NCBI RefSeq assembly: GCF_012849375.1
Contig: NZ_CP051684.1
Span: 2,790,001-2,854,000, forward strand
Reading direction: 5' to 3'
DNA: 64,000 bases
Source of the DNA: Duganella dendranthematis
Lineage (GTDB): Bacteria > Pseudomonadota > Gammaproteobacteria > Burkholderiales > Burkholderiaceae_D
Shown here: piece by piece, positions 4,001 to 61,309 of the stretch
Position numbering within the stretch: the first letter of the stretch is position 1
How the letters are laid out: each line of letters begins with the position of its first letter
Notes under the pieces: model-generated
What the model saw: only the letters and a program-made list of their open reading frames with translations
What the model was told of the DNA's origin: nothing
Databases searched by the model: none
Made by a program: the position numbers and the translations under genes

Positions 4001-5276
4001 CACTGACGACCACGGTCGTGAGCGTGAGCGTCACAAAGTGCCGTACGGCGCCACCCTGATCGTCAAGGATGGCATGGTCATCAAGGCCGGTACCGCACTG
4101 GCAACTTGGGATCCGCTGACCCGTCCGATCATTACCGAGTACGCCGGTACGGTGCGTTTCGAGAACGTCGAAGAAGGCGTGACCGTGGCCCGTCAGGTGG
4201 ACGAAGTGACCGGTCTGGCAACGCTGGTGGTGATCGATGCGAAACGTCGCGGTTCGTTGACCAAAACGCTGCGTCCACAGGTCAAACTGTTGAACGAAGA
4301 TGGCAACGAAGTTAAGATCGCCGGCACCGAACACGCGGTGGCGATTGGCTTCCAGGTCGGCGCGCTGATCATGGTGAAAGACGGCCAGGCAGTATCGGTG
4401 GGTGAAGTGCTGGCACGTATCCCGACCGAATCGCAGAAAACCCGTGACATTACCGGTGGTCTGCCGCGCGTTGCCGAGCTGTTCGAAGCACGCTCGCCAA
4501 AAGACGCCGGCATGCTGGCGGAAGTGACCGGTACTGTGGCCTTCGGTAAAGAAACCAAAGGTAAGCAGCGTCTGGAAATTACCGACATGGACGGTAACAA
4601 GCACGAATTCCTGATTACCAAGGATAAACAAGTGCTGGTTCACGACGGCCAGGTGGTGAATAAAGGCGAGATGATTGTTGACGGCCCAGCCGATCCACAA
4701 GATATTCTGCGTCTGCTGGGTATCGAAGCGCTGGCACGTTATATCGTTGACGAAGTGCAGGACGTTTATCGTCTGCAAGGCGTGAAGATTAATGACAAGC
4801 ACATTGAAGTCATTGTGCGTCAGATGCTGCGTCGTGTTCAGATCGTGAATGCTGGCGACACCAACTACATCGTTGGCGAGCAAGTTGAGCGTTCGGAACT
4901 GCTGGATGAGAATGATCGCGTCAATGCAGAGAATAAGATCCCTGCAACTTACGAGAACGTTCTGCTGGGTATTACCAAGGCATCGCTGTCGACCGATTCG
5001 TTCATCTCGGCCGCATCGTTCCAGGAAACCACCCGCGTGCTGACCGAAGCAGCGATCATGGGCAAACGCGATGGTCTGCGTGGCCTGAAAGAAAACGTGA
5101 TCGTGGGTCGTCTGATTCCAGGCGGTACCGGTCTGGCCTTCCACCGCGCTCGCAAGGAAAAAGAAGCGTGGGAAGTCGAAGAGCGCCAGGCGCTGCTGGC
5201 TTCCGAGAAGGCAGCCATGTCCGGTGGTGATGTGGAAGCAATCGAAGCGGTTGCCCCACACAGCGACGAAGCGTAA
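1044..5276 (+). CDS. rpoC: RNA polymerase beta-prime subunit
   Basis: Full-length 1410-residue beta-prime subunit, close to the usual proteobacterial length of about 1400. The N-terminal zinc ribbon uses C70, C72, C85 and C88. The catalytic NADFDGD loop places the Mg-binding aspartates at residues 460, 462 and 464. The second zinc site is visible in the segment with [13 protein letters not shown] near residue 900, and the trigger-loop region follows with [19 protein letters not shown]. The ATG at 1044 is preceded by a GGAG site. It forms the core enzyme with alpha, beta and omega. The gene is last in its transcription unit, with a terminator 17 bp after the stop. Codon use is strongly biased, as expected for a highly expressed gene. 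Confidence 0.99.
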
Positions 5277-44356: not shown

Positions 44357-45601
<1,245 letters not shown>

Positions 45602-45637: not shown

Positions 45638-46774
45638 GTGAAATACAGTACATTATTTGAGCCGATGACGCTCCTCCCAGGTCTGGTTGTGCGCAACCGC
45701 ATCGTGATGGCGCCGATGACCACCTGGGCCGGCAACGACGATGGCACGGTCTCCGATGAGGAGGAGGCCTACTATCGCCGCCGGGCGCAGGACGTTGGCC
45801 TGGTGATCATTGGCTGCACGCACGTCCAGGAAAATGGTGTCGGTTTTACTGGCGAATTTGCCGCGCACGACGACCGCTACATTCCGAGCCTGCGCAAACT
45901 GGCGCGTGCCGCCAAAAGTGGCGGCGCACCGGCTATCCTGCAAATCTTCCACGCCGGCGTCAAGACTTTGCCGGCGCTGGTCACCGACGTGGTGGCTGCC
46001 AGTGCTGTTGCTGGTGACGGCGGTCCGTTCGCATCGGCCATCATGCCAAGAGCGCTAGATGGCGAAGAAATACCGGATATCGTAGAGGCATTCGCCGATG
46101 CCACGCGGCGCGCCATCATGGCTGGCTTTGATGGCGTCGAATTGCATGGTGCGCACGGATTCCTGATCCAGAATTTCTTCTCGCCGCGTTCGAATCGCCG
46201 CACCGATGAGTGGGGTGGCTCGCTGGAAAATCGCATGCGGTTTCCGCTGGCGATTGTGGCAGCCGTCCGGCGCACCATCGCCGAACATGCAGACCGGCCG
46301 TTTGCACTCGGCTATCGCATTTCGGTGGAAGAGGAGGTCCAAGGCGGCCTGACGCTGGATGATTCGCTACAGTTGATCACGCGCCTGATTGACGCCGGCG
46401 CAAGCTATATCCATGCCTCGCTTGGCAGTGCGTTAGACCAGCAGCCGTCGACCGGCGAGCATCGTGGGACGATCGTCAGCATATTGCGTGCTCACATAGA
46501 CGGCCGCGTGCCGCTGATGGCGGCGGGCCGCGTCAAGACGCCCGCACAAGCTGCCAGCGCGCTCGATATGGGCCTGGCGCTGGTCGCTGTGGGACAGGGT
46601 TTGGTTATCGATCCGGAGTGGGTGTCGCATGCCCGCGCCGGACGGGATGCTGATGTTCGCACGACCATCTCCGCTGACGATGTGGCGCGCACCAGCATCC
46701 CTGGCAAACTATGGGGCGTCATCAATGCGACGCCCGGCTGGTTCGAGGTGGTTGCCCCGGATAGTGCCGCTTAA
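45638..46774 (+). CDS. NADH:flavin oxidoreductase, Old Yellow Enzyme family
   Basis: 378 residues from a GTG start. A TIM-barrel FMN enzyme: NRIVMAPMTTWAGNDDGTVS at the N-terminus, the HGAHGFLIQNFFSPRSNRRTD segment near residue 168, and the phosphate-binding MAAGRVKTPAQA region. It should reduce activated C=C bonds or other electrophiles with NAD(P)H in the cytoplasm. It lies behind the reductase gene and probably forms a LysR-controlled operon with it. Its stop overlaps the convergent methyltransferase stop by 4 bp. Confidence 0.9.
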   Translation: MKYSTLFEPMTLLPGLVVRNRIVMAPMTTWAGNDDGTVSDEEEAYYRRRAQDVGLVIIGCTHVQENGVGFTGEFAAHDDRYIPSLRKLARAAKSGGAPAILQIFHAGVKTLPALVTDVVAASAVAGDGGPFASAIMPRALDGEEIPDIVEAFADATRRAIMAGFDGVELHGAHGFLIQNFFSPRSNRRTDEWGGSLENRMRFPLAIVAAVRRTIAEHADRPFALGYRISVEEEVQGGLTLDDSLQLITRLIDAGASYIHASLGSALDQQPSTGEHRGTIVSILRAHIDGRVPLMAAGRVKTPAQAASALDMGLALVAVGQGLVIDPEWVSHARAGRDADVRTTISADDVARTSIPGKLWGVINATPGWFEVVAPDSAA

Positions 46775-47583
46775 GGCTTGACGAATTTAAGCGTCATGCG
46801 GTCGCTCTCGCCGATGGCCTGATACTTGGCGCGGTCCTCGTCCTTGTTGGCATAGGTCGGCGGCAGCGCCCACACGCCGCCTTTGTGGTCGGCGGTGTCC
46901 TTCGGGTTGGCGTTGACTTCCGAACGGCCGGCCAGCTTGAAGCCCGCCGCTTCCGCCAGCTTGATCACATACTGCTCGTGCATATAACCGCTGCTGGCCG
47001 TCGCATCCTGCGTTTTCGACGCCGGCAGGCGATGCTCTTCCACACCCAGCACACCGCCCGGTTTCAGCACCGTGTACAGGTTGCCGAACAAATCCTTCAT
47101 CTTGTCCGGACCCAGCTCGATCCAGTTATGGATATTACGGAAGGTCAGCACCATGTCCACGCTGTTCGGCGCCGCCAGCTCGTATTTGCGGCCCGGCGAG
47201 AACACGCCAATCGCCACCTTGTTGTATGCCTCCGGCTTGGCGTTCAGGCGCGCCATGAAGCGCTCTGCGCCACGACGTTCACCTTCGTTGGGCGAGGCCA
47301 GGTCATTGCCGCCGGTGATCAGTTTTCCGTGATCGCGCAGGTACGGCGCCAGGATCTCGGTGTACCAGCCGCCGCCCGGCGCCAGTTCCACCACCGTCAT
47401 GGTCGGCTTGATGCCGAAGAAGCTCAGCGTCTCGTACGGATGGCGATAGACATCGCGCTTGACGTTGTCCGGCGTGCGCGTTGGGGCGGCGATGGCGGCC
47501 TTCAGTGCGTCGTCGGCCAGTGCGGCGCTGTTGGCGCCGACCAGCGTCATGGTGGCGATAGCCGCCAGGATAAATCGTTTCAT
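46771..47583 (-). CDS. Exported class I SAM-dependent methyltransferase-like protein
   Basis: 270 residues with a clear signal peptide (MKRFILAAIATMTLVGANSAALA) and GGAGA upstream of the ATG. The fold signature is VVELAPGGGWYTEILAPYL (motif I) and a GGVLGVEEHR strand. Export is odd because the periplasm is not known to contain S-adenosylmethionine. Many proteobacteria keep such exported relatives, so it may bind a different ligand or be a non-methyltransferase homologue. It is divergent from the TldD operon across a 301-bp regulatory region. Confidence 0.85.
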   Translation of the reverse strand: MKRFILAAIATMTLVGANSAALADDALKAAIAAPTRTPDNVKRDVYRHPYETLSFFGIKPTMTVVELAPGGGWYTEILAPYLRDHGKLITGGNDLASPNEGERRGAERFMARLNAKPEAYNKVAIGVFSPGRKYELAAPNSVDMVLTFRNIHNWIELGPDKMKDLFGNLYTVLKPGGVLGVEEHRLPASKTQDATASSGYMHEQYVIKLAEAAGFKLAGRSEVNANPKDTADHKGGVWALPPTYANKDEDRAKYQAIGESDRMTLKFVKP

Positions 47584-47884: not shown

Positions 47885-49522
47885 ATGGAACGACGTGCTT
47901 TCCTCAATATCAGTAGTCTGGCGCTGGGCACGATGCTGTTGCCCAGCTTTGGCCGCGCCATCGCTGCCGAAGAACTGCTGACGCAAGTGGATGTGAAGTT
48001 CAAAAAAGCCCTGGCCGATACCGCGATGACGGCCGCCACCCAGGCCGGCGCTTCCTACTGCGACGTGCGCGTGGGCCGCTACCTGAATCAGTTCATTACC
48101 ACCCGTGACCTGAATGTGGAAAACGTCACCAACACCGAGTCGGCCGGCGTCGGCGTGCGCGTAATCTCCGGCGGCGCCTATGGCTTTGCCGCCACCAACG
48201 ACATGACGCCGGACGGCGTGGCAGCCGCCGCGCGCCAGGCGGTCGCCATCGCCAAGGCCAATGCCAAGCTGCAAACCGAACCGCTGATCCTGGCGCCGGT
48301 AAAAGGCGTGGGCGAAGTGGCGTGGGCCACCCCGATCACCAAGGATTGGCGCACGGTGCCGATCAAGGAAAAGGCCGAGCTGCTGATCGCCGCCAACAAG
48401 GCCGGCATGGACGGCGGCGCCAGCTTCATGCAGTCCTTGCTGTTCCAGGTGAACCAGCAGAAGTACTTCGCATCGACCGACGGCTCCTACATCGACCAGG
48501 ACGTGCACCGTTTGTGGGTGCCGTTCTTCGCCACCGCCGTCGACCAGAAAGAGAACAAGTTCCGTTCGCGCCAGGGCCTGTCGGCGCCGGTCGGCATGGG
48601 TTACGAATACCTGGACGCGCGGCCCGAGCACAAGCTGCAGGCGGCCGGCGGCGTGACCACGCTGTACACCAAGTCCTACGACATCATCGAAGACGCGCGC
48701 CTGGCCGGCAAGCAGGCCAAGGCCAAGCTGAAAGCCAAGTCGGTGGAGCCGGGCAAATACGATCTGGTGCTGTCGCCGGAACACCTGTGGCTGACCATTC
48801 ACGAATCCGTCGGCCACCCGACCGAGCTGGATCGCGTGCTGGGCTACGAGGCCAATTACGCAGGCACCAGCTTCGCCACGCTGGACAAATGGCAGTCTAA
48901 GAAATTCAAGTACGGTTCGGACCTGGTCAACATCGTCGCCGACAAGACTACACCAGGTTCGCTCGGCGCGGTCGGTTACGACGACGAAGGCGTCAAGTGC
49001 AAGAACTGGGACATCATCAAGGACGGCATCCTGGTCAACTACCAGGCCACGCGCGACCAGGCCCACATCATCGGCGAGAAGGAATCGCACGGCTGCTCGT
49101 ATGCGGACAACTGGGCCAATGTGCAGTTCCAGCGCATGCCGAACGTGTCGCTCAAGGCCGGCGCCAGGAAGCAGACGCCGGACGACATGATCAAGGACGT
49201 CAAGAAGGGCATCTACATCGTCGGCGATGGCTCGTTCTCGATCGACCAGCAGCGCTACAATTTCCAGTTTGGCGGCCAGCTGTTCTACGAAATCAAGAAC
49301 GGCAAGATCGGCCAGCAGCTGGAAGACGTGGCCTACCAGTCCAACACCCAGGAGTTCTGGAACGCCTGCGTGGGCATCTGCGACGAGCGCGATTGGCGCA
49401 TGGGCGGCTCCTTCTTCGACGGCAAGGGCCAGCCACCGCAAGTGTCCATCGTGTCGCACGGCGCGGCGACGACGCGCTTCAACGGCATTAACGTGATCAA
49501 CACCGCCCGCAAGATCGGCTAA
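47885..49522 (+). CDS. TldD-family metalloprotease, Tat-exported, copy 1
   Basis: 545 residues from the ATG at 47885 with GGAG upstream. A twin-arginine signal peptide (ERRAFLNISSLALGTMLLP, cleavage near AIA-AEE) is present. The TldD fold follows, with the HExxxH zinc motif at H306, E307 and H311 in HESVGH. TldD works as a heterodimer with TldE and degrades or processes unfolded or modified peptides. The cysteine normally found near the end in a CGKDGQ context is not there; the matching region reads GGSFFDGKGQP. It is the first gene of a ten-gene run and is followed by its TldE partner after 18 bp. Confidence 0.9.
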   Translation: MERRAFLNISSLALGTMLLPSFGRAIAAEELLTQVDVKFKKALADTAMTAATQAGASYCDVRVGRYLNQFITTRDLNVENVTNTESAGVGVRVISGGAYGFAATNDMTPDGVAAAARQAVAIAKANAKLQTEPLILAPVKGVGEVAWATPITKDWRTVPIKEKAELLIAANKAGMDGGASFMQSLLFQVNQQKYFASTDGSYIDQDVHRLWVPFFATAVDQKENKFRSRQGLSAPVGMGYEYLDARPEHKLQAAGGVTTLYTKSYDIIEDARLAGKQAKAKLKAKSVEPGKYDLVLSPEHLWLTIHESVGHPTELDRVLGYEANYAGTSFATLDKWQSKKFKYGSDLVNIVADKTTPGSLGAVGYDDEGVKCKNWDIIKDGILVNYQATRDQAHIIGEKESHGCSYADNWANVQFQRMPNVSLKAGARKQTPDDMIKDVKKGIYIVGDGSFSIDQQRYNFQFGGQLFYEIKNGKIGQQLEDVAYQSNTQEFWNACVGICDERDWRMGGSFFDGKGQPPQVSIVSHGAATTRFNGINVINTARKIG

Positions 49523-49540
49523 GTCCTGGAGAGAGACAAG

Positions 49541-50878
49541 ATGAAATTCCTGAGTCAAGAAGAGACCAAGCGTATCAGCGACAAACTGCTGGCGCTGACC
49601 AAGGCCGATCAGTGCGAGATCACCATCAACGGCAGCCGCAAGGGCAATATCCGCTATGCGCGCAACGCCGTTTCCACCGCGGGCCTGATTGAGGACACGC
49701 AGCTGGTGGTGTCCGTCGCCTTCGGCAAAAAACAGGGCACGGCTTCCGTCAATGAGTTCGACGACAAGTCGCTGGAAAAAGCCGTGCGCCGCGCGGAAGA
49801 CCTGGCGCGCCTGGCGCCGGAAAATCCGGAGTTCATGCCGACGCCGACCAAGCAAGAGTACAAGGCGTCGCAGACCTTCTTCCAGAAGACCGCCGACATC
49901 GATCCTGAGTTCCGCGCGCAGGTGGCGGCTTACAGTATCGAGAATTCGCGCAAGAACAAGCTGGTGGCGGCGGGCTTCTTCACCGACGGCGCGCAGTTCA
50001 CTTCCATCGCCAACTCCAACGGCGTGTTCGGCTACCAGACCGACACGGGCCTGGACTTCACGCTGACGGTGCGCACCGAAGACGGCCGCGGTTCCGGCTG
50101 GGTCAAGCGCAGCGTGGGCGATGCCAGCAAGTTCGATGCGCGCGCTGCATCGGATGTCGCCATTGAAAAGGCGTTGCGTTCGGTGGATGCCAAGGCGCTG
50201 GAGCCGGGCCGCTACACGGTGATCCTGGAGCCGGCCGCCACTTCCGACGTGCTGGCGTATATGTTCAATTCCTTCGATGCGCGTTCGGCCGACGAAGGCC
50301 GCAGCTTTCTGTCGAAAAAGGGCGGCGGCAATCGCATGGGCGAGAAGCTGTTCGATGAGCAGGTCAATGTGTGGGCCGATCCGTGGGACAAGGATGTCGC
50401 CGTGCTGCCGTGGGATACCGGCAGCATGCTGGCGCGCGAACGCCAGGACATCATCAAGAACGGCCGCATCGCCAACCTGGATTACTCGCAGTATTGGGCC
50501 AAGAAGCAGGGCAAGCGCGCCATCGGCACGCCGGGCAATATCATCATGGCCGGCACCAACAAGTCGACCGAAGAGCTGATCGCCAATACCAAGAAGGGCA
50601 TCCTGGTTACGCGTACCTGGTATATCCGCATGGTGGACCCGCAGTCGGTGCTGCTGACCGGCCTGACGCGCGACGGCACGTTCTACATCGAGAACGGCAA
50701 GATCAAGCATCCGATCAAGAACTTCCGCTTCAATGAAAGCCCAGTGTCGATGTTGAACAACATCGATGAAATCGGCAAACCGGAGATTCTCTCGGGCGAT
50801 GAGTGGCAGTATCAGTTGCTGATTCCGGCGATGAAGGTCCGTGACTTCAACTTCACCTCTTTGTCGGACGCGGTGTAA
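49541..50878 (+). CDS. TldE/PmbA-family subunit, copy 1
   Basis: 445 residues with GGAGA before the ATG. It has the TldE/PmbA fold (NIRYARNAVSTAGLIEDTQLVVSVAFGKKQG near the start) but no HExxxH motif, as expected for the non-catalytic partner. There is no signal peptide, although the TldD partner is Tat-targeted. It could therefore be carried across the membrane bound to TldD. It ends DFNFTSLSDAV, as does copy 2. The second TldD gene starts 2 bp after its stop. Confidence 0.88.
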   Translation: MKFLSQEETKRISDKLLALTKADQCEITINGSRKGNIRYARNAVSTAGLIEDTQLVVSVAFGKKQGTASVNEFDDKSLEKAVRRAEDLARLAPENPEFMPTPTKQEYKASQTFFQKTADIDPEFRAQVAAYSIENSRKNKLVAAGFFTDGAQFTSIANSNGVFGYQTDTGLDFTLTVRTEDGRGSGWVKRSVGDASKFDARAASDVAIEKALRSVDAKALEPGRYTVILEPAATSDVLAYMFNSFDARSADEGRSFLSKKGGGNRMGEKLFDEQVNVWADPWDKDVAVLPWDTGSMLARERQDIIKNGRIANLDYSQYWAKKQGKRAIGTPGNIIMAGTNKSTEELIANTKKGILVTRTWYIRMVDPQSVLLTGLTRDGTFYIENGKIKHPIKNFRFNESPVSMLNNIDEIGKPEILSGDEWQYQLLIPAMKVRDFNFTSLSDAV

Positions 50879-50880
50879 TC

Positions 50881-52518
50881 ATGGAGCGACGTTCATTCCT
50901 GAAAGTAGGCGCCGTCGCTGGCGGCAGCCTGCTGGTGCCGGTCTTCGGTAACGCGATTGCAGCCGAAGAGCTGCTCAACCCCATGGCTGTGCAGTTCAAG
51001 AAGTCGCTGGCCGACGCCGCAATGAACGCCGCGACCAAGGCCGGTGCCTCGTACTGCGACGTGCGCATCGGCCGCTATCTGAACCAGTTCATCACCACGC
51101 GTGACCTGAACGTGGAAAATATCGTCAACACCGAATCGTCCGGCGTTGGCGTGCGCGTGATCGCCGGCGGCGCTTATGGCTTTTGCTCGACCAACGTGAT
51201 GACACTGGACTCGGTGGCCGACGCGGCGCGCCAGGCGGTCGCCATCGCCAAGGCCAACGCCAAGCTGCAAACCGAGCCGGTGGTGCTGGCGCCGGTTAAG
51301 GGCGTGGGTGAAGTGGCGTGGGCTACGCCGTTCAAGAAGGACTGGCGCGCGGTGCCGATCAAGGACAAGGCGGACATGCTGCTGGCCGCGAACAAGGCCG
51401 GGCTGGATGCCGGCGCCAGCTTCATGGCGGCCAATCTGTTCCAGGTGAATCAGCAGAAGTATTTTGCATCCACCGACGGCTCGTATATCGACCAGGACAT
51501 CCATCGTCTGTGGTCGCCGTTTACCGCCACCGCCGTCGATAAAACCAGCGGCAAGTTCCGCACGCGCGACGGCCTGTCTTCGCCGGCCAGCATGGGCTTT
51601 GAATTCTTCGACTGCAAAGCGGAGAACCGCGTCAAGGCTGCAGGTGGCGTCACCACGCTGTACAAGGGTGCTTACGATCTGATTGAAGATGCGCGCGCGG
51701 CGGGCCGCCAGGCACGCGAAAAGCTGACTGCGAAGACGGTCGATCCGGGCAAGTACGATTTGGTGCTGTCGCCGGAACACCTGTTCCTGACCATTCACGA
51801 ATCGGTCGGCCATGCCACCGAACTGGATCGCGTGCTGGGCTACGAGGCCAATTACGCAGGCACCAGCTTCGCTACGCTGGACAAGTGGAAGTCGAAGAAC
51901 TTCAAGTATGGCTCGGAGCTGGTCAACATCGTCGCCGACAAGACCACGCCGGGTTCACTGGGCCTGGTCGGTTACGACGATGAAGGCGTCGCCTCCAAAC
52001 GCTGGGATTTGATCCGCAACGGCATTCTGGTCAACTACCAGGCCACGCGCGACCAGGCCGCCATCATCGGCGAGAAGGAATCGCAGGGCTGCTCGTATGC
52101 CGATAGCTGGAGCAGCGTGCAGTTCCAGCGCATGCCCAACGTGTCGCTGGAAGCGGGCAAGAAGCAGCTGACGCCCGACGAAATGGTCAAGGACGTCAAG
52201 AAGGGCATTTATATCCTGGGTCGCGGTTCGTACTCGATCGACCAGCAACGCTACAACTTCCAGTTTGGCGGCCAGCTGTACTTCGAAATCAAGAACGGCA
52301 AAATCGTCAACCAGCTGGAGGACGTGGCCTATCAGTCGAACACCCAGGAATTTTGGAACGCCTGCACCGCGCTGTGCGATGAACGCGACTGGCGCATGGG
52401 CGGCTCGTTCTTCGATGGCAAAGGCCAGCCTAGCCAGGTGAGCGCCGTGTCGCATGGTTCGCCGACGACGCGCTTCAACGGCATCAACGTAATCAACACC
52501 GCTCGCAAGATTGGATAA
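50881..52518 (+). CDS. TldD-family metalloprotease, Tat-exported, copy 2
   Basis: 545 residues, the same length as copy 1 and alike over its whole length. The Tat signal is close to ideal (ERRSFLKVGAVAGGSLLVP, cleavage near AIA-AEE). The zinc motif HESVGH again falls at 306-311. Like copy 1 it has NAC-x3-C-DERDWRMGGSFF near the end and lacks the usual CGKDGQ. The gene overlaps nothing but starts 2 bp after the TldE copy 1 stop, so it is co-transcribed. It arose by tandem duplication of the pair. Confidence 0.9.
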   Translation: MERRSFLKVGAVAGGSLLVPVFGNAIAAEELLNPMAVQFKKSLADAAMNAATKAGASYCDVRIGRYLNQFITTRDLNVENIVNTESSGVGVRVIAGGAYGFCSTNVMTLDSVADAARQAVAIAKANAKLQTEPVVLAPVKGVGEVAWATPFKKDWRAVPIKDKADMLLAANKAGLDAGASFMAANLFQVNQQKYFASTDGSYIDQDIHRLWSPFTATAVDKTSGKFRTRDGLSSPASMGFEFFDCKAENRVKAAGGVTTLYKGAYDLIEDARAAGRQAREKLTAKTVDPGKYDLVLSPEHLFLTIHESVGHATELDRVLGYEANYAGTSFATLDKWKSKNFKYGSELVNIVADKTTPGSLGLVGYDDEGVASKRWDLIRNGILVNYQATRDQAAIIGEKESQGCSYADSWSSVQFQRMPNVSLEAGKKQLTPDEMVKDVKKGIYILGRGSYSIDQQRYNFQFGGQLYFEIKNGKIVNQLEDVAYQSNTQEFWNACTALCDERDWRMGGSFFDGKGQPSQVSAVSHGSPTTRFNGINVINTARKIG

Positions 52519-52521
52519 CAG

Positions 52522-53859
52522 ATGAAGATGCTGAATCAGGAAGAAGCGAAACGCGTTTGCGACAAGCTGATGTCACTGTCCAAGGCGGACGAGTGCCGGG
52601 TGCAGATCAGCGGCTCGCGCAACGGTAACATCCGCTATGCGCGCAATGCGGTATCGACGGCAGGCCTGGCGGAGAACACGCAGCTGACGGTGAGCGTCGC
52701 CTTCGGCAAGCGCCAGGGCACGGCCTCGATCAACGAGTTTGACGACAAGTCGCTGGAAAAGGTAATCCGCCGCGCCGAAGACGTGGCGCGCCTGGCGCCG
52801 GAAAATCCGGAGTTCCAGCCGGCGGTGAAGAAGCAGGATTACAAATCGTCCGTTACCTTTAGCGAGGCCACGGCGGCCATCGATCCCGAGTACCGCGCCG
52901 AAGTGGCGGCGCTCAGCATCAATTCGGCGCGCAAGCAGGGACTGGTGGCGGCAGGCTTTTTCAGCGACACCACCGGTTTTGAAACAGTGGCCAACTCCAA
53001 CGGCGTGTTCGGCTACCAGACCTTGAGTAATCTGGGCTTTACCGTCACCACGCGCACCGAAGATGGTCGTGGCTCCGGCTGGGTGACGCGTTCCGCCAAC
53101 GACGCGCGCAAGTTCGACGCCCGCGAAGCGTCCGAGATCGCCATCGAGAAAGCGTTGAAATCGGTCGACGCGAAAGCGCTGGAGCCGGGCCGCTACACGG
53201 TGATTCTGGAGCCGGCGGCGACGTCGGAAATCATCGGCCGCATGTTCGGCGCCTTCGATGCGCGCCAGGCGGACGAAGGCCGCAGCTTCCTGTCGAAGAA
53301 GGGCGGCGGCAATCGCCTGGGTGAGAAGCTGTTCGATGAGCAGGTCAATATCTGGGCCGATCCTTGGAACCCAGACGTGCCGGTGCTGCCATGGGATGGC
53401 CAGGCGATGCTGGCGCGCGAGCGCGCGGACGTGGTCAAGGGCGGCAAGATCGCCTCGCTGGACTATACGCGCTACTGGGCCGAGAAACAGGGACAGCGTG
53501 CCACCGGCCGTCATGGCAACATGATCATGGCTGGCGGCGGCAAGTCGACCGAGGAGCTGATTGCGTCGACAAAAAAGGGGATACTGGTCACGCGCACCTG
53601 GTATATCCGCATGGTCGATCCGCAGTCCTTGCTGCTGACCGGCTTGACGCGCGACGGCACGTTCTACATCGAGAACGGCAAGATCAAGCATCCGGTGAAG
53701 AACTTCCGCTTTAATGAAAGCCCGGTGTCGATGCTGAACAATATCGATGAACTGGGCAAGCCGGTGGTCATCGGCGGCGACGAGGTACGCTATCAGATGC
53801 TGATTCCGCCGATGAAGGTGCGCGACTTTAACTTCACGTCCCTGTCGGACGCGGTGTAA
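52522..53859 (+). CDS. TldE/PmbA-family subunit, copy 2
   Basis: 445 residues, exactly the length of copy 1, beginning 3 bp after the TldD copy 2 stop. It keeps the NIRYARNAVSTAG start and the GYQT, GRGSGW and ILVTRTWYIRMVDPQS blocks of copy 1, has no zinc motif and no signal peptide. It is probably the dedicated partner of TldD copy 2; cross-pairing between the copies is possible. Confidence 0.88.
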   Translation: MKMLNQEEAKRVCDKLMSLSKADECRVQISGSRNGNIRYARNAVSTAGLAENTQLTVSVAFGKRQGTASINEFDDKSLEKVIRRAEDVARLAPENPEFQPAVKKQDYKSSVTFSEATAAIDPEYRAEVAALSINSARKQGLVAAGFFSDTTGFETVANSNGVFGYQTLSNLGFTVTTRTEDGRGSGWVTRSANDARKFDAREASEIAIEKALKSVDAKALEPGRYTVILEPAATSEIIGRMFGAFDARQADEGRSFLSKKGGGNRLGEKLFDEQVNIWADPWNPDVPVLPWDGQAMLARERADVVKGGKIASLDYTRYWAEKQGQRATGRHGNMIMAGGGKSTEELIASTKKGILVTRTWYIRMVDPQSLLLTGLTRDGTFYIENGKIKHPVKNFRFNESPVSMLNNIDELGKPVVIGGDEVRYQMLIPPMKVRDFNFTSLSDAV

Positions 53860-53867
53860 GGACGGCT

Positions 53868-54491
53868 GTGGCCTCGTACGATTTTTATTTCACCCGCCTG
53901 ACTTACGAGTCGGGCGACTGGGATGTGGATGTCCGCATGCCCAGCAACGTGCTTAACTCGCTGGTGGAGTACACCACCTTGCGGGTCGATCCCGTTGAGC
54001 GCATCGTAGCGCTGTCCGATCCGAAGATGCTGGAGGCGCCGTTTTGCTATTTCGCCGGGCACAAGCTGGTGCAGTTTACGGCGGCCGAGCGCAAGAACCT
54101 GGAACGCTACATCAAGGGCGGCGGCTTTCTCTTCGTGGACGACTGCAACCACGATATCGACGGGCTGTTTGCGAAATCGTTTGAGGCTGAAATCGGCCGC
54201 ATCTTCGGGCCGAAGGCGCTGCACAAGATCCCCAACAATCATGCGATCTATTCGAGCTTCTTCAAGTTTGAAGACGGTCCGCCGAACACCGGCGTGGAGC
54301 TGAACGGCTGGGGCGACGATCTTGTTCACGACTATCTGAAAGCGGTTGAAGTCGGCGGCCGCGTGCGGCTTTTGTACAGCAACAAGGACTACGGCTGCGA
54401 GTGGGATTACGACTTCCGCAACAAGCGCTTTCTCGCGGTCGACAATACCCGCTTTGCGGTCAATATCATTCAATATGCGTTGGGAGCGTAG
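53868..54491 (+). CDS. DUF4159 domain protein
   Basis: 207 residues from a GTG start, 8 bp after the TldE stop. The family signature is present: GGGFLFVDDCNHDIDG near residue 85, the IPNNHAIYSSFFKF block near 125, and YSNKDYGCEWDYDF near 170. DUF4159 resembles a glutamine-amidotransferase-like fold without known activity and often occurs beside MoxR and DUF58 genes. No signal peptide or membrane helix is seen, so it is probably cytoplasmic. Its function is unknown. Confidence 0.88.
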   Translation: MASYDFYFTRLTYESGDWDVDVRMPSNVLNSLVEYTTLRVDPVERIVALSDPKMLEAPFCYFAGHKLVQFTAAERKNLERYIKGGGFLFVDDCNHDIDGLFAKSFEAEIGRIFGPKALHKIPNNHAIYSSFFKFEDGPPNTGVELNGWGDDLVHDYLKAVEVGGRVRLLYSNKDYGCEWDYDFRNKRFLAVDNTRFAVNIIQYALGA

Positions 54492-54496
54492 TTATT

Positions 54497-55498
54497 ATGG
54501 CTGATGGTGCAATCGCCTGGAGCGAAAATGAAATCGGCGCGCTGACCGCCAAGGTGAAGGCGCTCAAGGCCAGCATGGCGCGCGTGATCATCGGCCAGGA
54601 AAACGTGATCGATTCGCTGATCATCTGCCTGCTGGCGGGCGGCCATGCGCTGGTGGAGGGTGTGCCGGGACTGGGCAAGACGCTGCTGGTCAAGTCGCTG
54701 TCGCAGGCGACGGAGCTGGACTTCCATCGCGTGCAGTTCACGCCGGACCTGATGCCGTCGGATATCGTCGGCACCGAGATCCTGGAAGAAGACCATGCGA
54801 CGCGCAAGCGCGAGTTCCGCTTCCAGCAAGGTCCCGTGTTCACGCAAGTGCTGCTGGCGGATGAAATCAACCGCGCGCCGCCTAAGACGCAATCTGCTTT
54901 GCTGGAAGCGATGCAGGAGCGCTCCGTCACCTTCGCCGGGCAGACGCACAAGCTGCCCAAGCCGTTCTTTGTGCTGGCGACGCAGAATCCGATCGAGCAG
55001 GCCGGCACGTATCCGCTGCCGGAGGCGCAGCTGGACCGCTTCCTGCTGCGCATCGATGTCGTGTATCCGACCGAGGCCGAGGAAATCGCGATGGTATCGG
55101 CCACCACGCAGGCAGGCCTGAAAGACGCCGAGCCGGTGATGGATGTCTCCACGCTGCTGCGCCTTCAGCAACTGGTGCGTGATATCGAGATCGGCGAGCA
55201 CCTGTTGGCGTATGCCACGCGGCTGGTGCGAGCGACGCGGCCGGCGCTGACCACGGTGCCGGCGGTGAAGAAGCATATCGCCTGGGGCGCCGGACCGCGC
55301 GCCGGCCAGGCGCTGGTACTGGCCTCCAAGGCGCGCGCGCTGATGCAGGGCCGCCTGGCCGTCACACGTGAGGACATCGCCGAGATGCTGCTGCCGGTGC
55401 TGGCGCACCGCGTGCTGCGCAACTTCGAGGCGGAGGCGGATGGGGTGGCAATCGCCGAGATCCTGCAAGCGCTGCGCGAACATATTCGCCCGGACTAA
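54497..55498 (+). CDS. MoxR family AAA+ ATPase
   Basis: 333 residues from the ATG at 54497; the frame is open further upstream but inside the DUF4159 gene. Walker A is GVPGLGKTLLVKS and Walker B LLADEINRAPPKTQSALLEAMQE. The sensor region ATQNPIEQAGTYPLPEAQLDRF is typical of MoxR. These ATPases act as chaperones that assemble or activate complexes, often with DUF58 and VWA proteins. Here it lies between DUF4159 and DUF58 genes, the usual company. Confidence 0.95.
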   Translation: MADGAIAWSENEIGALTAKVKALKASMARVIIGQENVIDSLIICLLAGGHALVEGVPGLGKTLLVKSLSQATELDFHRVQFTPDLMPSDIVGTEILEEDHATRKREFRFQQGPVFTQVLLADEINRAPPKTQSALLEAMQERSVTFAGQTHKLPKPFFVLATQNPIEQAGTYPLPEAQLDRFLLRIDVVYPTEAEEIAMVSATTQAGLKDAEPVMDVSTLLRLQQLVRDIEIGEHLLAYATRLVRATRPALTTVPAVKKHIAWGAGPRAGQALVLASKARALMQGRLAVTREDIAEMLLPVLAHRVLRNFEAEADGVAIAEILQALREHIRPD

Positions 55499-55505
55499 GC
55501 TGCCG

Positions 55506-56420
55506 ATGCAATCGACCGCAACGCAGCCCGCTGGCGCAATGACCGCCATGCTGGCCCAGACCAGGGATCTGGATCTGGTGATCCGCCACGTGCTGGCGGG
55601 GCTGGGCCATGGCATCCATATTGGCCGCGAGCGCGGCGCCGGTGTCGAGTTCTCCGAATATCGCGCCTACGCCCCCGGCGACGAATGGCGCCGGGTGGAC
55701 TGGAAGCTGCTGGCGCGCGCCGACCGCTATTTCGTCCGCGAGGCGGAGCGCGACAGCCATGTCGCAGTCTGGCTCTGGCTCGATGCCACGGCATCGATGG
55801 CGGAGCCGAGCCGCGAGATAAATGGTATCGACAAGCTGTGGTTTGCACGCACCGTGCTGGCCTGTGTGGCCGCTATTGCGCAGCGCCAGGGTGACGCTTT
55901 CGGGCTGGTGGTGTGCAGCGGGGGCAAGGTTGACTACATGCCGGCTGCGCGTGGGCCGCGCCAGCTCCAGCGCGTGCTGGCTGCGCTGAACAAGGCGACG
56001 CCGCAGGGCGAGCTGCCATCAGCCGAAACGCTGCGCGCCAGCCTGCACTTCGCGCGCGCGCCGGGCATGATCTTCGCCGCCAGCGATTTCCTCGACTGGC
56101 CGTCGCCGCTCAGCGAGGCCTTGCTCCGTTTGCGGAATATGCGCCACGACGTGCGCCTGCTCACGCTGCGCACGCAGGCGGAGGTGGACGCCAGTTTCAA
56201 ATCCGGCGCCGGCTACCGCGATCCGGAGCGCGACGATGGCCTGCACCGCATGAGCAACGCCGACCGCGAACACTACAAGCAGCAAAGCCGCGCGCATTTC
56301 GGCAGCGTGGCGGCAAGCTGTCGTCAACATAACATCGTCCACTACGAGGCGCGCATCGAACAGCCATTGAGTGGCGTCTTGCGCAGCTGGTTGCAGCTGG
56401 CGGGAGCGCGGGCCAGATGA
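55506..56420 (+). CDS. DUF58 domain protein
   Basis: 304 residues from the ATG at 55506, 7 bp after the MoxR stop. The DUF58 signature RAYAPGDEWRRVDWKLLARADRYFVREAE (about 53-81) is clear, followed by a VWA-like fold (VWLWLDATASM with the D-A-T-A-S metal-site-like strand). It is a common partner and likely client of MoxR. The stop overlaps the next start as ATGA. Confidence 0.93.
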   Translation: MQSTATQPAGAMTAMLAQTRDLDLVIRHVLAGLGHGIHIGRERGAGVEFSEYRAYAPGDEWRRVDWKLLARADRYFVREAERDSHVAVWLWLDATASMAEPSREINGIDKLWFARTVLACVAAIAQRQGDAFGLVVCSGGKVDYMPAARGPRQLQRVLAALNKATPQGELPSAETLRASLHFARAPGMIFAASDFLDWPSPLSEALLRLRNMRHDVRLLTLRTQAEVDASFKSGAGYRDPERDDGLHRMSNADREHYKQQSRAHFGSVAASCRQHNIVHYEARIEQPLSGVLRSWLQLAGARAR

Positions 56421-57526
56421 TCTTGAGTTCTTATCCTTGGTGGTGGCTGGCGTTGCCGCTACTGCTGTTGCCGGTTTGGTGGCATCGCCAGAAGCGCCAG
56501 CGACTGAAAGCCGAGCCGCTGGCTACTGCGCGCTTCCTGCCACCGGCGGCGCCGGAACAGTTGCGTGTCTGGCAGTGGCGCGACAAGTTGTTGTTGCTGG
56601 TGCGCTGCCTGCTGTTGGTGACATTGATCGCGTGGCTGGCTGCCACCATATTCCCGTGGCGCGGCGACACGGTGATGATTGATGCCGGCGCAGACAAGAC
56701 CTGGGCCGAACAGCAAATCGCCGCAGCAGGCTTCAACACCTCCGCGCGTATCGACCTGCCGCCAAATCCGCTGGCATGGTTGCGCGCCAATGAGCGCAAT
56801 TGGCGTCCGACAGCACGACTGCTTATCGTCGCACGCGCCGATCAAATCGCCATGCCGGCCCGCGTGCCGCAATTCAGCCACCAGCTAGAACTGCGCACCG
56901 CCAACGCGCCGGTCATCCCGGTCGCGCCGTCCACGCCCGCCGCACGTGTGACGCCGCCTGGGGCACCTGCTTCGCCGCAGACCGCAACGACGCACCACAT
57001 TGTGCTGACCGCACCAGCCGCTCGCTTGCCAGCATGGCAATCACTGTTCGCCGCCTTCGACGTCGCCGGCAACGCAGCCACGCGCCACCAATTCACCGCC
57101 GAACCAGACGCTGGAACGACGCTGATTGTGTGGGACACGCCAGCGACCTCACCGGCCGCTAACTGGCGCGGCCCGCACTGGTGGATCGCTCCCGCTGCCG
57201 CCGCCGGCTTCACCGAGTTAGCATCCGCGACCAAGCTGACGATTAACGGTATCCAGCTGCGCTACGTCGATTCACCGCGCGGCCGTCTGTGGACGTCGGA
57301 CGCATTCCCACCACGCGATGCAGACACTGCTCGCGCGCTGTACGAAGCCTGGCAGCTGCTGTCCGCCGCACCGGCGCCAGCCTACGCCACGCCATCCCAA
57401 ACCTTTAGCGCCGCCCGCAGCGCGCTGCCCGCCATCACCAACGCCAAGTCAGCCTACTGGCTCGCTTTGGCCCTGCTGGCGCTTTTCATCCTCGAACGGA
57501 CCCTCACGCATGCACGGCGAAACTGA
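56417..57526 (+). CDS. BatA-like membrane protein
   Basis: 369 residues. Two N-terminal helices (about 5-20 and 55-80) surround a short LATARFLPP region typical of the BatA/aerotolerance N-terminal domain, and one C-terminal helix (about 345-362) is present. The middle part, residues 90-340, is rich in Ala, Pro and Thr and resembles a degenerate VWA-like region with no clear metal motif. It is coupled by overlap to the DUF58 gene and to the next gene. It probably anchors a MoxR-dependent complex in the membrane. Confidence 0.75.
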   Translation: MILSSYPWWWLALPLLLLPVWWHRQKRQRLKAEPLATARFLPPAAPEQLRVWQWRDKLLLLVRCLLLVTLIAWLAATIFPWRGDTVMIDAGADKTWAEQQIAAAGFNTSARIDLPPNPLAWLRANERNWRPTARLLIVARADQIAMPARVPQFSHQLELRTANAPVIPVAPSTPAARVTPPGAPASPQTATTHHIVLTAPAARLPAWQSLFAAFDVAGNAATRHQFTAEPDAGTTLIVWDTPATSPAANWRGPHWWIAPAAAAGFTELASATKLTINGIQLRYVDSPRGRLWTSDAFPPRDADTARALYEAWQLLSAAPAPAYATPSQTFSAARSALPAITNAKSAYWLALALLALFILERTLTHARRN

Positions 57527-59540
57527 CTACCTGCGCCGCCGCCTCTGGACCGCCATCTTGCGTCGCCGCAGCCCGCAATGGCTGGCCGCACTCTTGCCAA
57601 TGCTATTGGCCAGCTGGATGCTGTCCACCACCCGCATCGCCATGGCAGCAGCCATCACCCTCTGGGGAATTTGTGCCATCGCCGACGGCTACCGCTGGAA
57701 GCAACGCATCGCCGCGCAATGGCAATCTTGGCTCAACGCTGCCGTCCCCTCACTGGAAGACAGCAGCGAACTCCTGACAAGCGACGCAAAATCGCCTATC
57801 GCCAAACTCCAGCAACAACGCCTGCAAGCCCGCCTCGCCAGCGTGCTCACAGACGCCGACTACCAGCGCATTGCCCGCAGCCAGGCGCGCTTCTCTATCT
57901 GGCCGCTGCTGCTTGCCGTCCTCGCCACTGGAGTAGCCATCGCATGGCAAGGCCAGACAGCACCAACGCAAACAAAGCCAGCAGCGGCCATCCACGCCAA
58001 TAAACCAATCATTGACGGCGAGGTATACCTCAGCGTCACACCGCCAGCCTACACCGGCGTCAAGCCTTTCGAGACAGGTGCGCGCGACATCCAGATCCCG
58101 CAATACACCGACGTCCGATGGTGTGTTCGCAATGCCGCCGGCGCCGAACCCGCCGTCGAACTAGGCGATGGCCACACCCTCGCCATCGGCAAAGACTGCG
58201 CAAAACTCCGCGTTGAAGACTCGCTGTTCTGGCGCGTGCGGGGAACATCTACCACCCGCTACAACATCCGCGTCACGCCGGACCAGGCACCGCAAGTCAC
58301 CATCATCGAACCGACACAACTGATCCACCTACTGCAAAAAGACGCCAAGTCGGTACAAATCTCCATCAGCGCCCGCGACGACTACGCCATCGTCCGCGCC
58401 AGCCTGCACATGACCCTCGCGCGAGGCAGCGGCGAAAACATCCGCTTCAGCGACAAGGAAGTCCCGCTGCCGCAATCCAGCGATCCCAAATCGCGCAGCT
58501 GGAAAAAACAATGGACGCTGGCGGAACTCGGCATGGAGCCGGGCGATGAACTCTACTTCTTCGTCCGCGCCACCGACAACGCGCTGGAGAACCCGCATAC
58601 CGCACAATCGCCAACCTACACGCTGCGCCTGCCAGGACCGGAAGCCGAAAGCCTGGACTCCACCGCGTTGCCATCCATGAGCAAACCGGAAAACTTGCGC
58701 AGCCAGCGCCAGATCATCATCGACACCGAACAACTGGTCGCCGACCTGAAAGCCAATCCCGGCATGTCCGCCGCCACGCAACGCTCGCGCAGCGAAGGCA
58801 TCGCCGCCGACCAGGCCGCGCTGCGCCTGCGCTACGGCCAATTCCTCGGCGAAGAATCCAGCCTGTTCGGCGACGAGGAACATGAGCACGAACATCACGG
58901 CCAGGAAAAAGTCGGCAGCGAAATCAGCGTCATGAAGGAATTCGGCCACGCGCACGACGTCGAGGACAACGCCACTATCTTCGACCCACAGACCAAAGCG
59001 GTCCTTAAACGAGCACTGTCCGCGATGTGGGACGCGGAGAAGTCGCTGCGCGCCGTCTCGCCCAAGACCGCGCTTCCGCCGGAGTATAAGGCGCTGGACG
59101 CCATCAAGGAATTGCAGGCCGCAGAACGCGTCTACCTGCACCGCACCGCCTTTGTGCCGCCCGCATTGAAGGAAGAGAAGCGCATGACTGGCGACATCGT
59201 CGGCGCCATGAGCTACAAGCGCGCACAAGGTGAGGCCAGCGACACCGTGCCGGCCGAAGTGCGCGATCTGGTGCAAGCGTTGTCGCGGGATGGCACGTTG
59301 CCCGCGCTGTGGACCAAGGCCGCGCGTGAGGCGATTACCTCTCGCATCACCGATCAGGAACAGAAGTTGAGCGCGCAGCGCGCCGTGCAGGATGTACAGG
59401 ATGGGTGTGTTCCATGCCGTGCCGAGTTGCGCGCATGGTTGCGCGGTACGCTGACCGATGCGCCGGTACTGCTGCAAGCACGCCCTTCGGCGGATACGTC
59501 CTTCCGTCAGGCGTGGAGTGGCAAGGAGCAGGTTAAATGA
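57510..59540 (+). CDS. DUF4175-like membrane protein
   Basis: 676 residues from the ATG at 57510, which overlaps the previous gene by 17 bp. Helices lie near 28-60 and 130-146. A periplasmic part follows with an Ig-like segment (DDYAIVRASLHMTLA, then ELGMEPGDELYFFVRATDNA near 340) as in DUF4175 proteins, then a helical C-terminal region with a His/Glu-rich EEHEHEHHGQEK stretch near 455. Its function is unknown; the context points to a membrane complex with the MoxR system. The stop overlaps the next start as ATGA. Confidence 0.65.
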   Translation: MHGETDYLRRRLWTAILRRRSPQWLAALLPMLLASWMLSTTRIAMAAAITLWGICAIADGYRWKQRIAAQWQSWLNAAVPSLEDSSELLTSDAKSPIAKLQQQRLQARLASVLTDADYQRIARSQARFSIWPLLLAVLATGVAIAWQGQTAPTQTKPAAAIHANKPIIDGEVYLSVTPPAYTGVKPFETGARDIQIPQYTDVRWCVRNAAGAEPAVELGDGHTLAIGKDCAKLRVEDSLFWRVRGTSTTRYNIRVTPDQAPQVTIIEPTQLIHLLQKDAKSVQISISARDDYAIVRASLHMTLARGSGENIRFSDKEVPLPQSSDPKSRSWKKQWTLAELGMEPGDELYFFVRATDNALENPHTAQSPTYTLRLPGPEAESLDSTALPSMSKPENLRSQRQIIIDTEQLVADLKANPGMSAATQRSRSEGIAADQAALRLRYGQFLGEESSLFGDEEHEHEHHGQEKVGSEISVMKEFGHAHDVEDNATIFDPQTKAVLKRALSAMWDAEKSLRAVSPKTALPPEYKALDAIKELQAAERVYLHRTAFVPPALKEEKRMTGDIVGAMSYKRAQGEASDTVPAEVRDLVQALSRDGTLPALWTKAAREAITSRITDQEQKLSAQRAVQDVQDGCVPCRAELRAWLRGTLTDAPVLLQARPSADTSFRQAWSGKEQVK

Positions 59541-61309
59541 TTATTTCTACCGACTTGGCGAATATTGCGCCGCCCTTGGTAGCGCTGGCTGCTGGCTTGA
59601 TCAGCGCCGTGCTGTATGGCCGCACGCGCCGCTGGATCGACGCAGCGTTGGCTGGCGTGGCCGGCATCGCGCTGGCGGTGGCGATTGCGGATGTGCGCTT
59701 GCCTGCAGGCGCTGCGGCACCGTTGGCCGTCAGCACGGAGGCTGGACGCATCAGCGCGTCCGATCTGTCTGCGATCCCGGCTGCATCCGGCATTGTGCTG
59801 AGTGGCGATGGCGTGCGCGAGGCAGAGTGGCGCGATTTGCCAGCGCGTCCGCTGCAATGGAAGCCGGCGGCGGCGGAGTTGTTATGGCTAGATTTTCCGC
59901 GTTCGATGTCGCTGGGCCGTATCTTTACGCTGACTGTGCGGCGTTCATCGGCGCCGGCGCAGTGGCGCTTGCAGCTACTGGCTGAGAACAAGCAGGTACT
60001 GGCGGATTCCGGTCTGGCGGCGGAGCCGCAGCTGTCCGTGCAGTGGTTGCCGCCGGTGGCGGAGGTCATGGTGCTGCAAGCCCGCCTGCTCGACAAGAAC
60101 GGCAAGACAATTGCGCAGGGACCGATTCCATTGCAGGTGAAGGATGCCGTGCCGTTGCAGATTCAGGGCCGTTTCGATGCGCCGTCGTTTGATGCGCGGG
60201 CATTGAATCAGTTGCTGTCCGATGGCGGTGCGGTATTGGATTGGAATGTCACTCTGGGCAAGTCGATCACGCGCAGCGAGACTGCGCGCGTGCCTCTGGT
60301 GGCAGCCAATGCGGTGTTTATCGATGCGGCGTATGTTGAACATTTGAGCGCTGCGGCGCGTGCGGCTTTGCTGGCGCAGGCCGGTAAGGGCGTGCCGCTG
60401 GTGGTCCTGGGCGGGAATGCTTCGGATGCGGGCATGTGGCAGCGGGAGTTTGGCTTGTCGCTGCGTCCGCAGTCGCCAACGACGGAGAAAGAGGACGTGC
60501 GGCAGTTTGGTGTGCTATCGCTGCCGCCGGCGCAATTGAATCCTTCGGAGAGTGTCGCGGCGCCGTGGTCTGTTCTGGCGCGGGATGCTCGCAAGCAGCC
60601 GTGGTTGTGGCAGCGTGGTGTTGGTCAGGGACGCGTGGTGTGGGTAGGCGTGGCAGACTGGCATAAGTATGCGATTAGTGCGCCGCAGGCGTTGGCGCTG
60701 TGGTGGCAATCGGCAATGGATTTGATTGCGTTGGATGACGCGCAAAAAGCGGTTTGGCAGATGAACGATCCTCTGCCAGTGCCGGGATTGCGTAGTGAGG
60801 TGTGTGCGCAAGGTGTGAAGACCGGGACGGTGCTGACGGCCGAAGGCTATGCGGCGATGGCGCTGGCTGCGCGCGTGGACAAGGCGGATGCTGTGTGTGC
60901 GGCGTTTTGGCCGCAGAAGGCTGGCTGGGTGAAATTCAGCGCGGCGGGCATGACGGAGCAGGGCGTGGAATACGTCTACGCCTCCGGCGATTGGCCCGCG
61001 TGGCAGAAGGCGCTGCGCCGCGACGCAACCATGCAGTACGCCGCCCGCTCCGCGCCAACACCCACCGGCGAAGACACCGCCGCCACGACGGCCACTGCCA
61101 CTGCAACTACGCGGAGCGGCGCTGCCAACGCCATGGCTTTGGCCACCGCGACGGCCGTCGACGCAGGCCAAGTCTCGGCTGTCGCTGGCGTCGCGGATGG
61201 CGCTAGCTGGCCAGGTGCGCGGGCGGCTGGCGTGCTGTTTGCGCTAGTGCTGCTTGCTCTTTGGTGGCGTGAGCAGCGGCACATCGGCGGCGCTGGCGAT
61301 AGGTTATGA
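59537..61309 (+). CDS. Membrane protein at the end of the TldD-MoxR operon
   Basis: 590 residues. Two N-terminal helices (about 10-28 and 35-52) and one near the C-terminus (about 562-580) flank a large periplasmic or cytoplasmic part. Segments such as VPLVVLGGNASDAGMW and GQGRVVWVGVADWHKYAI resemble the glutamine-amidotransferase-like domain of large BatA-type proteins. A Thr/Ala-rich low-complexity stretch lies near 515-530. No family can be named with confidence. It is the last gene of the run before a gap to the aldolase gene. Confidence 0.6.
   Translation: MIISTDLANIAPPLVALAAGLISAVLYGRTRRWIDAALAGVAGIALAVAIADVRLPAGAAAPLAVSTEAGRISASDLSAIPAASGIVLSGDGVREAEWRDLPARPLQWKPAAAELLWLDFPRSMSLGRIFTLTVRRSSAPAQWRLQLLAENKQVLADSGLAAEPQLSVQWLPPVAEVMVLQARLLDKNGKTIAQGPIPLQVKDAVPLQIQGRFDAPSFDARALNQLLSDGGAVLDWNVTLGKSITRSETARVPLVAANAVFIDAAYVEHLSAAARAALLAQAGKGVPLVVLGGNASDAGMWQREFGLSLRPQSPTTEKEDVRQFGVLSLPPAQLNPSESVAAPWSVLARDARKQPWLWQRGVGQGRVVWVGVADWHKYAISAPQALALWWQSAMDLIALDDAQKAVWQMNDPLPVPGLRSEVCAQGVKTGTVLTAEGYAAMALAARVDKADAVCAAFWPQKAGWVKFSAAGMTEQGVEYVYASGDWPAWQKALRRDATMQYAARSAPTPTGEDTAATTATATATTRSGAANAMALATATAVDAGQVSAVAGVADGASWPGARAAGVLFALVLLALWWREQRHIGGAGDRL

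Follow-up and report, generated by a model that had tools for sequence, protein, structure and literature searches.

TldD and TldE (PmbA) make up a metalloprotease whose Escherichia coli representative carries no signal peptide and works in the cytoplasm. The 64,000-nucleotide stretch of Duganella dendranthematis DNA analyzed here (contig NZ_CP051684.1, positions 2,790,001 to 2,854,000; hereafter the window, to whose numbering coordinates refer) holds two tandem TldD/TldE pairs in which both TldD copies open with an apparent twin-arginine translocation (Tat) signal and neither TldE copy has one. Where, then, does this protease work, and how would a signal-less subunit get there? We find that a Tat-signal-bearing TldD beside a signal-less TldE is a real, conserved and little noticed pattern that runs through whole lineages. 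The best explanation, and one we consider likely, is that TldD/TldE is an exported heterodimeric metalloprotease in which TldE crosses the membrane as a Tat hitchhiker.

Twin-arginine signals on TldD but not on TldE

The four genes, assigned from open reading frames (ORFs) and Pfam matches, lie head to tail on the plus strand in the order TldD1 (47885..49522, 545 residues), TldE1 (49541..50878, 445 residues), TldD2 (50881..52518, 545 residues) and TldE2 (52522..53859, 445 residues). All four proteins exceed the gathering score for the three PmbA_TldD domains (PF01523, PF19290 and PF19289). The two TldD copies, 79% identical in alignment, are the catalytic subunits, and each begins with a predicted Tat signal peptide, read from the sequence as ERRAFLN in TldD1 (47885..47965, +) and as ERRSFLK in TldD2 (50881..50961, +), the latter with a sub-cut-off match to the profile TIGR01409. 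Cleavage is expected after AIA in both copies (MERRAFLNISSLALGTMLLPSFGRAIA/AEE and MERRSFLKVGAVAGGSLLVPVFGNAIA/AEE; opening residues MERRAFLNISSLALGTMLLPSFGRAIAAEE and MERRSFLKVGAVAGGSLLVPVFGNAIAAEE, respectively). TldE1 (MKFLSQEETKRISDK...) and TldE2 (MKMLNQEEAKRVCDK...) open straight into the mature fold, and TldE1 lacks the catalytic HExxxH motif.

A single scan of genome contigs, from which the best 80 of at least 585 confirmed relatives were taken, yielded 78 loci from Oxalobacteraceae, Gammaproteobacteria, Sphingobium, Bacteroidota and one metagenome-assembled genome named Verrucomicrobia (Verrucomicrobiota). In 141 of the 142 TldD proteins of these loci, with start codons assigned by alignment, the twin arginine (RR) occupies precisely residues 3 and 4. 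A simple Tat test, requiring an N-terminal RR motif plus a hydrophobic stretch, was passed by 139 of 142 TldD from the aligned start, TldD1 and TldD2 included, versus 0 of 123 TldE, for which every in-frame ATG, GTG or TTG start as far as 60 codons upstream was tried. Of the 867 other ORFs that reach 250 residues, a set in which many are not genuine genes, 17 passed when read from their first ATG. An alignment of 49 chosen TldD, which left out the one RR-less copy (the first in L111), contained only three invariant residues before A56, namely M1, R3 and R4. The AIA-AEE region, or a near variant, is frequent in proteobacterial TldD.

The sequence-only reading had called both twin-arginine signals, the predicted cleavage region and the absence of any signal from TldE, and the calls on the twin arginine and on TldE extend to the relatives; it had also proposed a search for Tat-TldD genes beside signal-less TldE genes, and the 78 loci show the pattern to span several phyla. 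It had further suggested an exported TldDE, in which TldE may cross by hitchhiking. The half of that interpretation that concerns TldD is strongly supported by the conservation of the twin arginine: because RR sits at residues 3-4 almost without exception and nearly every TldD passes the Tat test, we regard Tat export of TldD as very probable. It also fits the signal-like N-termini of DUF4159 partners in many relatives. The half that concerns TldE hitchhiking is a further step, which fits E. coli biochemistry and known Tat hitchhikers.

A proposed route for TldE

In the route we favor, TldD, with its HExxxH motif and a probable Asp512 ligand, and the motif-less TldE would fold and pair in the cytoplasm, where metal would also be loaded before crossing. 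The Tat translocase would read the twin-arginine signal of TldD and transport the whole hollow heterodimer, TldE traveling as a hitchhiker, and signal peptidase would be expected to cut TldD after AIA. In the periplasm, the protease may trim unfolded chains or peptides from their N-terminal ends, as has been proposed for the cytoplasmic E. coli enzyme, and may act alongside the DUF4159 protein and the membrane-bound MoxR/DUF58/BatA-like/DUF4175 machine of the same operon. Unfolded envelope proteins or peptides are, in our opinion, its most likely substrates.

Co-export of TldE we judge probable, if less secure than export of TldD itself. It fits because E. coli TldD/TldE shows activity only with both subunits present and prefers the heterodimer, the TldD homodimer being described as less stable (PMC5810440), and because there are precedents in HybOC and PaoABC, whose subunits HybC, PaoB and PaoC cross the membrane with a signal-bearing partner (PMC4273604). 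As here, a single subunit of those complexes bears the signal and its partners have none, although HybOC and PaoABC are redox enzymes whereas TldD/TldE is a metalloprotease whose co-export we infer. The E. coli heterodimer shell is given as about 65 Å wide (PMC5810440), and the Tat pathway is stated to move folded substrates of 20-70 Å (PMC4273604). No natural TldD-TldE fusion was present among 691 ORFs matching any of ten window proteins. Two candidates that span both parts (P0241 and P0310), found among the 120 matches listed of 722 to a joined query, were rejected by eye as frameshift-derived, with out-of-frame joins and broken ends.

An aspartate at the third metal-ligand position

The HExxxH motif reads HESVGH in both copies, at residues 306-311 of TldD1 (48800..48817, +) by homology to E. 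coli His262/His267 and at 51796..51813 (+) in TldD2 by alignment with TldD1; HE..GH is kept in all 142 TldD, and HExxxH is absent from the TldE rows printed. In E. coli TldD the metal ligands are His262, His267 and, as the third, Cys454 (PMC5810440). The position aligned with Cys454 is Asp512 in TldD1 (49418..49420, +), and the alignment of the two copies places the same aspartate at 52414..52416 (+) in TldD2. Asp occupies this position in 139 of 139 readable TldD of the clade (the other three of the 142 are cut or frameshifted), compared with Cys in all 11 outgroup TldD that were fetched and in 9 of 9 further Bacteroidota TldD (L163-L171, read by eye from their tails), which brings the signal-less TldD with Cys to 20. 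Asp512 is, on this alignment, probably the third metal ligand of TldD. Aspartate as a stand-in for this ligand has been noted before in some species, for example Gemmatimonas sp., and the available part of that account neither links the substitution with export nor mentions export of the Gemmatimonas protein (PMC5810440).

Predicted structures agree with the family assignment. The models of TldD1 and TldE1 (mean predicted local distance difference test score, pLDDT, 83.9 and 89.7) have solved TldD and TldE chains as their top structural matches, placing both in the TldD/PmbA fold. In TldD1, the signal (residues 1-22, pLDDT below 50) and the loops 407-416 and 511-522, the second of which includes Asp512, are poorly predicted.

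Distribution and origin of the signal

In a tree of 58 chosen TldD, the 36 that combine a Tat signal with Asp group in a single clade (support 96/81), and its nearest relatives have no signal: L045, signal-less and with Cys, is its sister, with 100/97 on the branch leading to both. Two Bacteroidota proteins that combine a Tat signal with Cys, L153 and L154, are placed elsewhere, adjoining four canonical TldD (93/89); in these, too, Tat-TldD is paired with a signal-less TldE, and this second lineage occurs in 2 of 198 Bacteroidota genomes. Two origins of the export signal are likely on this topology and not proven, because the tree program flags the joins of L153/L154 and of L045 as long-branch meetings. 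The Tat/Asp clade itself was found in 9 of 299 Pseudomonadota genomes (all nine with at least 778 bits) and in 20 of the 198 Bacteroidota genomes (22 matches minus the two of the second lineage). Nine other Bacteroidota TldD, L163-L171, lack an RR signal. A Bacteroidota genome with three clade TldD matches also encodes a TldD paralogue (L162, 1501-3135, -) with HESVAH and an Arg-Lys signal.

The closest named relatives of TldD1 come from Duganella and Pseudoduganella, of the family Oxalobacteraceae. Neither subunit reaches the cut-offs of the NCBIfam equivalogs for E. coli-type TldD/PmbA (PRK10735/PRK11040; TldD1 78.4 bits versus 513, TldE1 59.5 versus 438). The 6.53 Mb single-contig genome has six PmbA_TldD_1st matches, four of them the window proteins and two elsewhere. 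Those two further matches, one TldD-like and one PmbA-like, lie outside the operon and have no signals, so the Tat-TldD operon comes on top of the ordinary TldD/PmbA pair of the genome.

Gene order and the surrounding operon

Duplicated pairs are typical of the family: TldD-TldE-TldD-TldE occurs in 35 of 41 Oxalobacteraceae loci and TldD-TldE-TldD in 6 of 41, two of which end at a contig edge. In L063, L069, L086 and L088, all from Oxalobacteraceae, a second TldD is present and no second TldE was detected ahead of DUF4159. The 37 loci from other groups range from one pair up to TldD-TldD-TldE-TldD-TldE, and the two numbers may be unequal. The two paralogous pairs to which the sequence-only reading had pointed are therefore a trait of Oxalobacteraceae and not an essential feature. 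TldD and TldE are direct neighbors in 122 cases, with a median gap of 16 bases. Oxalobacteraceae second copies group together in the TldD tree (67/86) and the TldE tree (87/82), and first copies have no supported clade of their own, with L070_TldE1 lying nearer copy 2. A joint duplication of the TldD-TldE pair is compatible with these trees and not proven by them, because copy 1 forms no supported clade.

Downstream, all on the plus strand, follow a stand-alone DUF4159 protein (53868..54491, 207 residues, no signal; PF13709, 171.8 bits), a MoxR-family AAA+ ATPase (AAA_3 in Pfam; 54497..55498), a DUF58 protein (55368..56420), a BatA-like membrane protein (56417..57526), a DUF4175 membrane protein (57318..59540) and, as the last gene of the conserved block, a 590-residue membrane protein (59537..61309). 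DUF58 and DUF4175, both assigned by Pfam, are given as open frames whose true starts probably lie further in. The BatA-like protein has an N-terminal double-anchor region (PF07584, 25.1 bits against a cut-off of 25.9), with two N-terminal hydrophobic segments and one C-terminal at a lenient threshold; the 590-residue protein has hydrophobic segments, no Pfam match and relatives in some other loci. A promoter and terminator scan gave no score above those of shuffled sequences.

The DUF4159 gene was found in 63 of the 78 loci. Of the 15 without it, six (L083, L085, L105, L116, L124, L131) stop no more than 100 bases past the last gene matched and one (L125) 1.4 kb past it; in eight Bacteroidota loci (L097, L104, L107, L108, L110, L111, L118, L128) no DUF4159 was detected despite room. 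PF13709 is present in 72 of the 299 Pseudomonadota genomes, and a short stand-alone frame (219-299 residues) occurs in exactly the nine with Tat-TldD. The other 63 carry the domain within long open frames (578-1222 residues). Eight of these were inspected, and each proved to be a large membrane protein in which two hydrophobic segments lie near the N-terminus and DUF4159 at the C-terminal end. In seven of the eight (the exception is L206), the last 45 residues before the domain contain a 17-mer with mean hydropathy of at least 1.5. Given that segment, the fused domain may lie on the periplasmic side; we are unsure of this, as the second segment appears only in some at a higher threshold.

Among 71 DUF4159 relatives, each taken at its most hydrophobic start, an N-terminus resembling a signal was found in all 22 Pseudomonadota loci that are not from Oxalobacteraceae (21 exceed the threshold and one stands at 1.31; eight have RR by eye), which would give the operon an exported soluble DUF4159 partner in several lineages. 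Among the TldD, TldE and DUF4159 proteins of the window, TldD alone has a recognizable signal. A wider scheme, which we hold to be rather unlikely as a whole, is that in Oxalobacteraceae and Bacteroidota the one Tat signal of TldD carries TldD, TldE and DUF4159 together, that these form a periplasmic, energy-coupled trimming complex to which the MoxR/DUF58/Bat-like machine feeds substrates or for which it unfolds them, and that the signal arose at least twice.

Weighing the alternatives

Several observations count against export of the heterodimer. The sole RR exception among the 142 TldD, the first copy in L111, reads KRSEF and lies near a contig end. In a second Bacteroidota survey, read by eye on genomes that partly overlap the 78-locus sample, RR was present in 25 of 30 distinct clade TldD and RK in 5 of 30. 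TldD1 matches neither TIGR01409 nor PF10518, and at E 0.05 these curated Tat profiles recover only a minority of 49 TldD (7 and 10, respectively). DUF4159 has a signal in 0 of 40 Oxalobacteraceae and 0 of 9 Bacteroidota, and so lends no direct support in this window; under the simple Tat test applied above to TldD and TldE, which is stricter, only 5 of 63 DUF4159 proteins are Tat-like. Clade proteins are not poor in cysteine (means of 4.9 for TldD and 2.3 for TldE), which rules out cysteine loss as a general mark of export. The Asp-for-Cys exchange is likewise ruled out as a requirement, because L153 and L154 keep Cys together with a Tat signal. Nor does TatC discriminate: the gene was found in 31 of 31 host genomes tested, which fits Tat export but is a weak test with 197 of 198 Bacteroidota genomes positive anyway, and its presence or absence was set aside as having no power. 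Genome G000 has a TatC gene. As for the profiles, TldD2 scores 16.3 bits against a TIGR01409 cut-off of 16.7 (E 0.0094), and at E 0.05 that profile matches 0 of 44 TldE; the curated profiles are less sensitive for TldD than the simple RR test.

Of the alternatives to an exported heterodimer, the one that fares best, and that we nonetheless find improbable, is that TldD crosses the membrane alone and works as a homodimer while TldE stays in the cytoplasm. The absence of a Tat signal from 123 of 123 TldE accords with it, as does the excess of TldD over TldE genes in some loci, and TldD could in principle act alone given that ultracentrifugation has revealed homodimers of E. coli TldD and that activity is reported for a TldD homodimer from Sulfolobus (PMC5810440). 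However, TldE adjoins TldD across phyla, the duplicated copies look joint, and a cytoplasmic TldE would be left without a partner from its own operon.

Slightly less credible is the idea that the twin-arginine segment is an uncleaved anchor, keeping TldD/TldE at the cytoplasmic side of the membrane or simply tethering it. A clear AxA site is missing in many Bacteroidota TldD and the operon is rich in membrane proteins, yet RR is far better kept than the rest of the segment, which points to Tat and not to plain anchoring; cleavage sites of the AIA-AEE type in proteobacterial TldD, and the export signals of DUF4159 partners in other Pseudomonadota, argue in the same direction.

We think it very unlikely that the signal is vestigial and that both subunits function in the cytoplasm, as the E. 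coli relative does, since a twin arginine held at residues 3-4 over several phyla is not expected of a vestige. Least likely of all is that TldE is exported by another route or by a signal hidden through start-site choice: the TldE starts do come from alignment, but the upstream starts tried gave no Tat-like N-terminus and merely hydrophobic ones in 2 of 123 (one of them from starts about 50 codons upstream), and in many loci a stop codon lies just upstream of the start. Joint export of TldD and TldE through the TldD signal is thus the reading we retain.

Other genes in the window

Upstream, a 270-residue protein (46771-47583, -) carries a Sec-like signal (MKRFILAAIATMTLVGANSAALAD); the part behind it matches methyltransferases weakly, below Pfam cut-offs, and the protein is apparently an exported methyltransferase-like one. 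An aldo/keto reductase (44405-45601, +; 270.4 bits) would have a Tat-like signal ahead of it if translation starts at an internal Met. A 2922-residue protein (13922-22690, +) combines GH94 and glucoamylase-like domains with glycosyltransferase domains below cut-off, and presumably resembles cyclic beta-glucan synthase. An RNA polymerase beta-prime-type subunit with RNA_pol_Rpb1 domains is encoded at 1044-5276 (+).

Discussion

The proteins described here are a variant of a known protease and not a new kind. They differ from E. coli TldD/TldE (PDB 5NJ5; 21% identical to 5nj5_A when aligned by structure) in the Tat signal on TldD, in Asp for Cys454 and in their operon. We found no exported TldD/TldE in the literature, judging by the titles and abstract openings of the open-license PMC papers listed, and a search of open-license PMC for DUF4159 gave no paper.

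Related operons have been described. Bacteroides BatI and Borrelia bb0170-bb0176 (PMC5700661), as well as Rhizobium RL3499-RL3502 (PMC3893208, PMC4287336), share MoxR, DUF58 and Bat-like membrane proteins with the present locus, and the available portions of those papers mention no TldD/TldE. RL3499, a Rhizobium leguminosarum MoxR protein belonging to the MRP subfamily, is reported to be important for membrane integrity and cell morphology (PMC3893208), which by analogy gives a weak hint of an envelope function for the operon. Closest in content is an uncharacterized operon of Stenotrophomonas maltophilia, NIPOLPBK_01784-01792, some genes of which are lower in biofilms; it comprises two TldD, a putative protease, MoxR, a membrane protein and three hypothetical proteins, and export is not mentioned in the accessible part of the report (PMC7688217). 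Going by these gene descriptions, it is probably the same operon.

In one lineage, a change from Cys to Asp as third metal ligand seems to have accompanied the move to a new compartment, though the second Tat lineage shows that the two need not go together. TldD/TldE has so far been studied inside cells, in cytoplasmic peptide maturation. If it is exported in several phyla, the closed TldD/TldE protease chamber would be placed in the envelope, a metalloprotease heterodimer would join the Tat hitchhikers, and the DUF4159/MoxR/Bat-type operons would gain a lead on their function.

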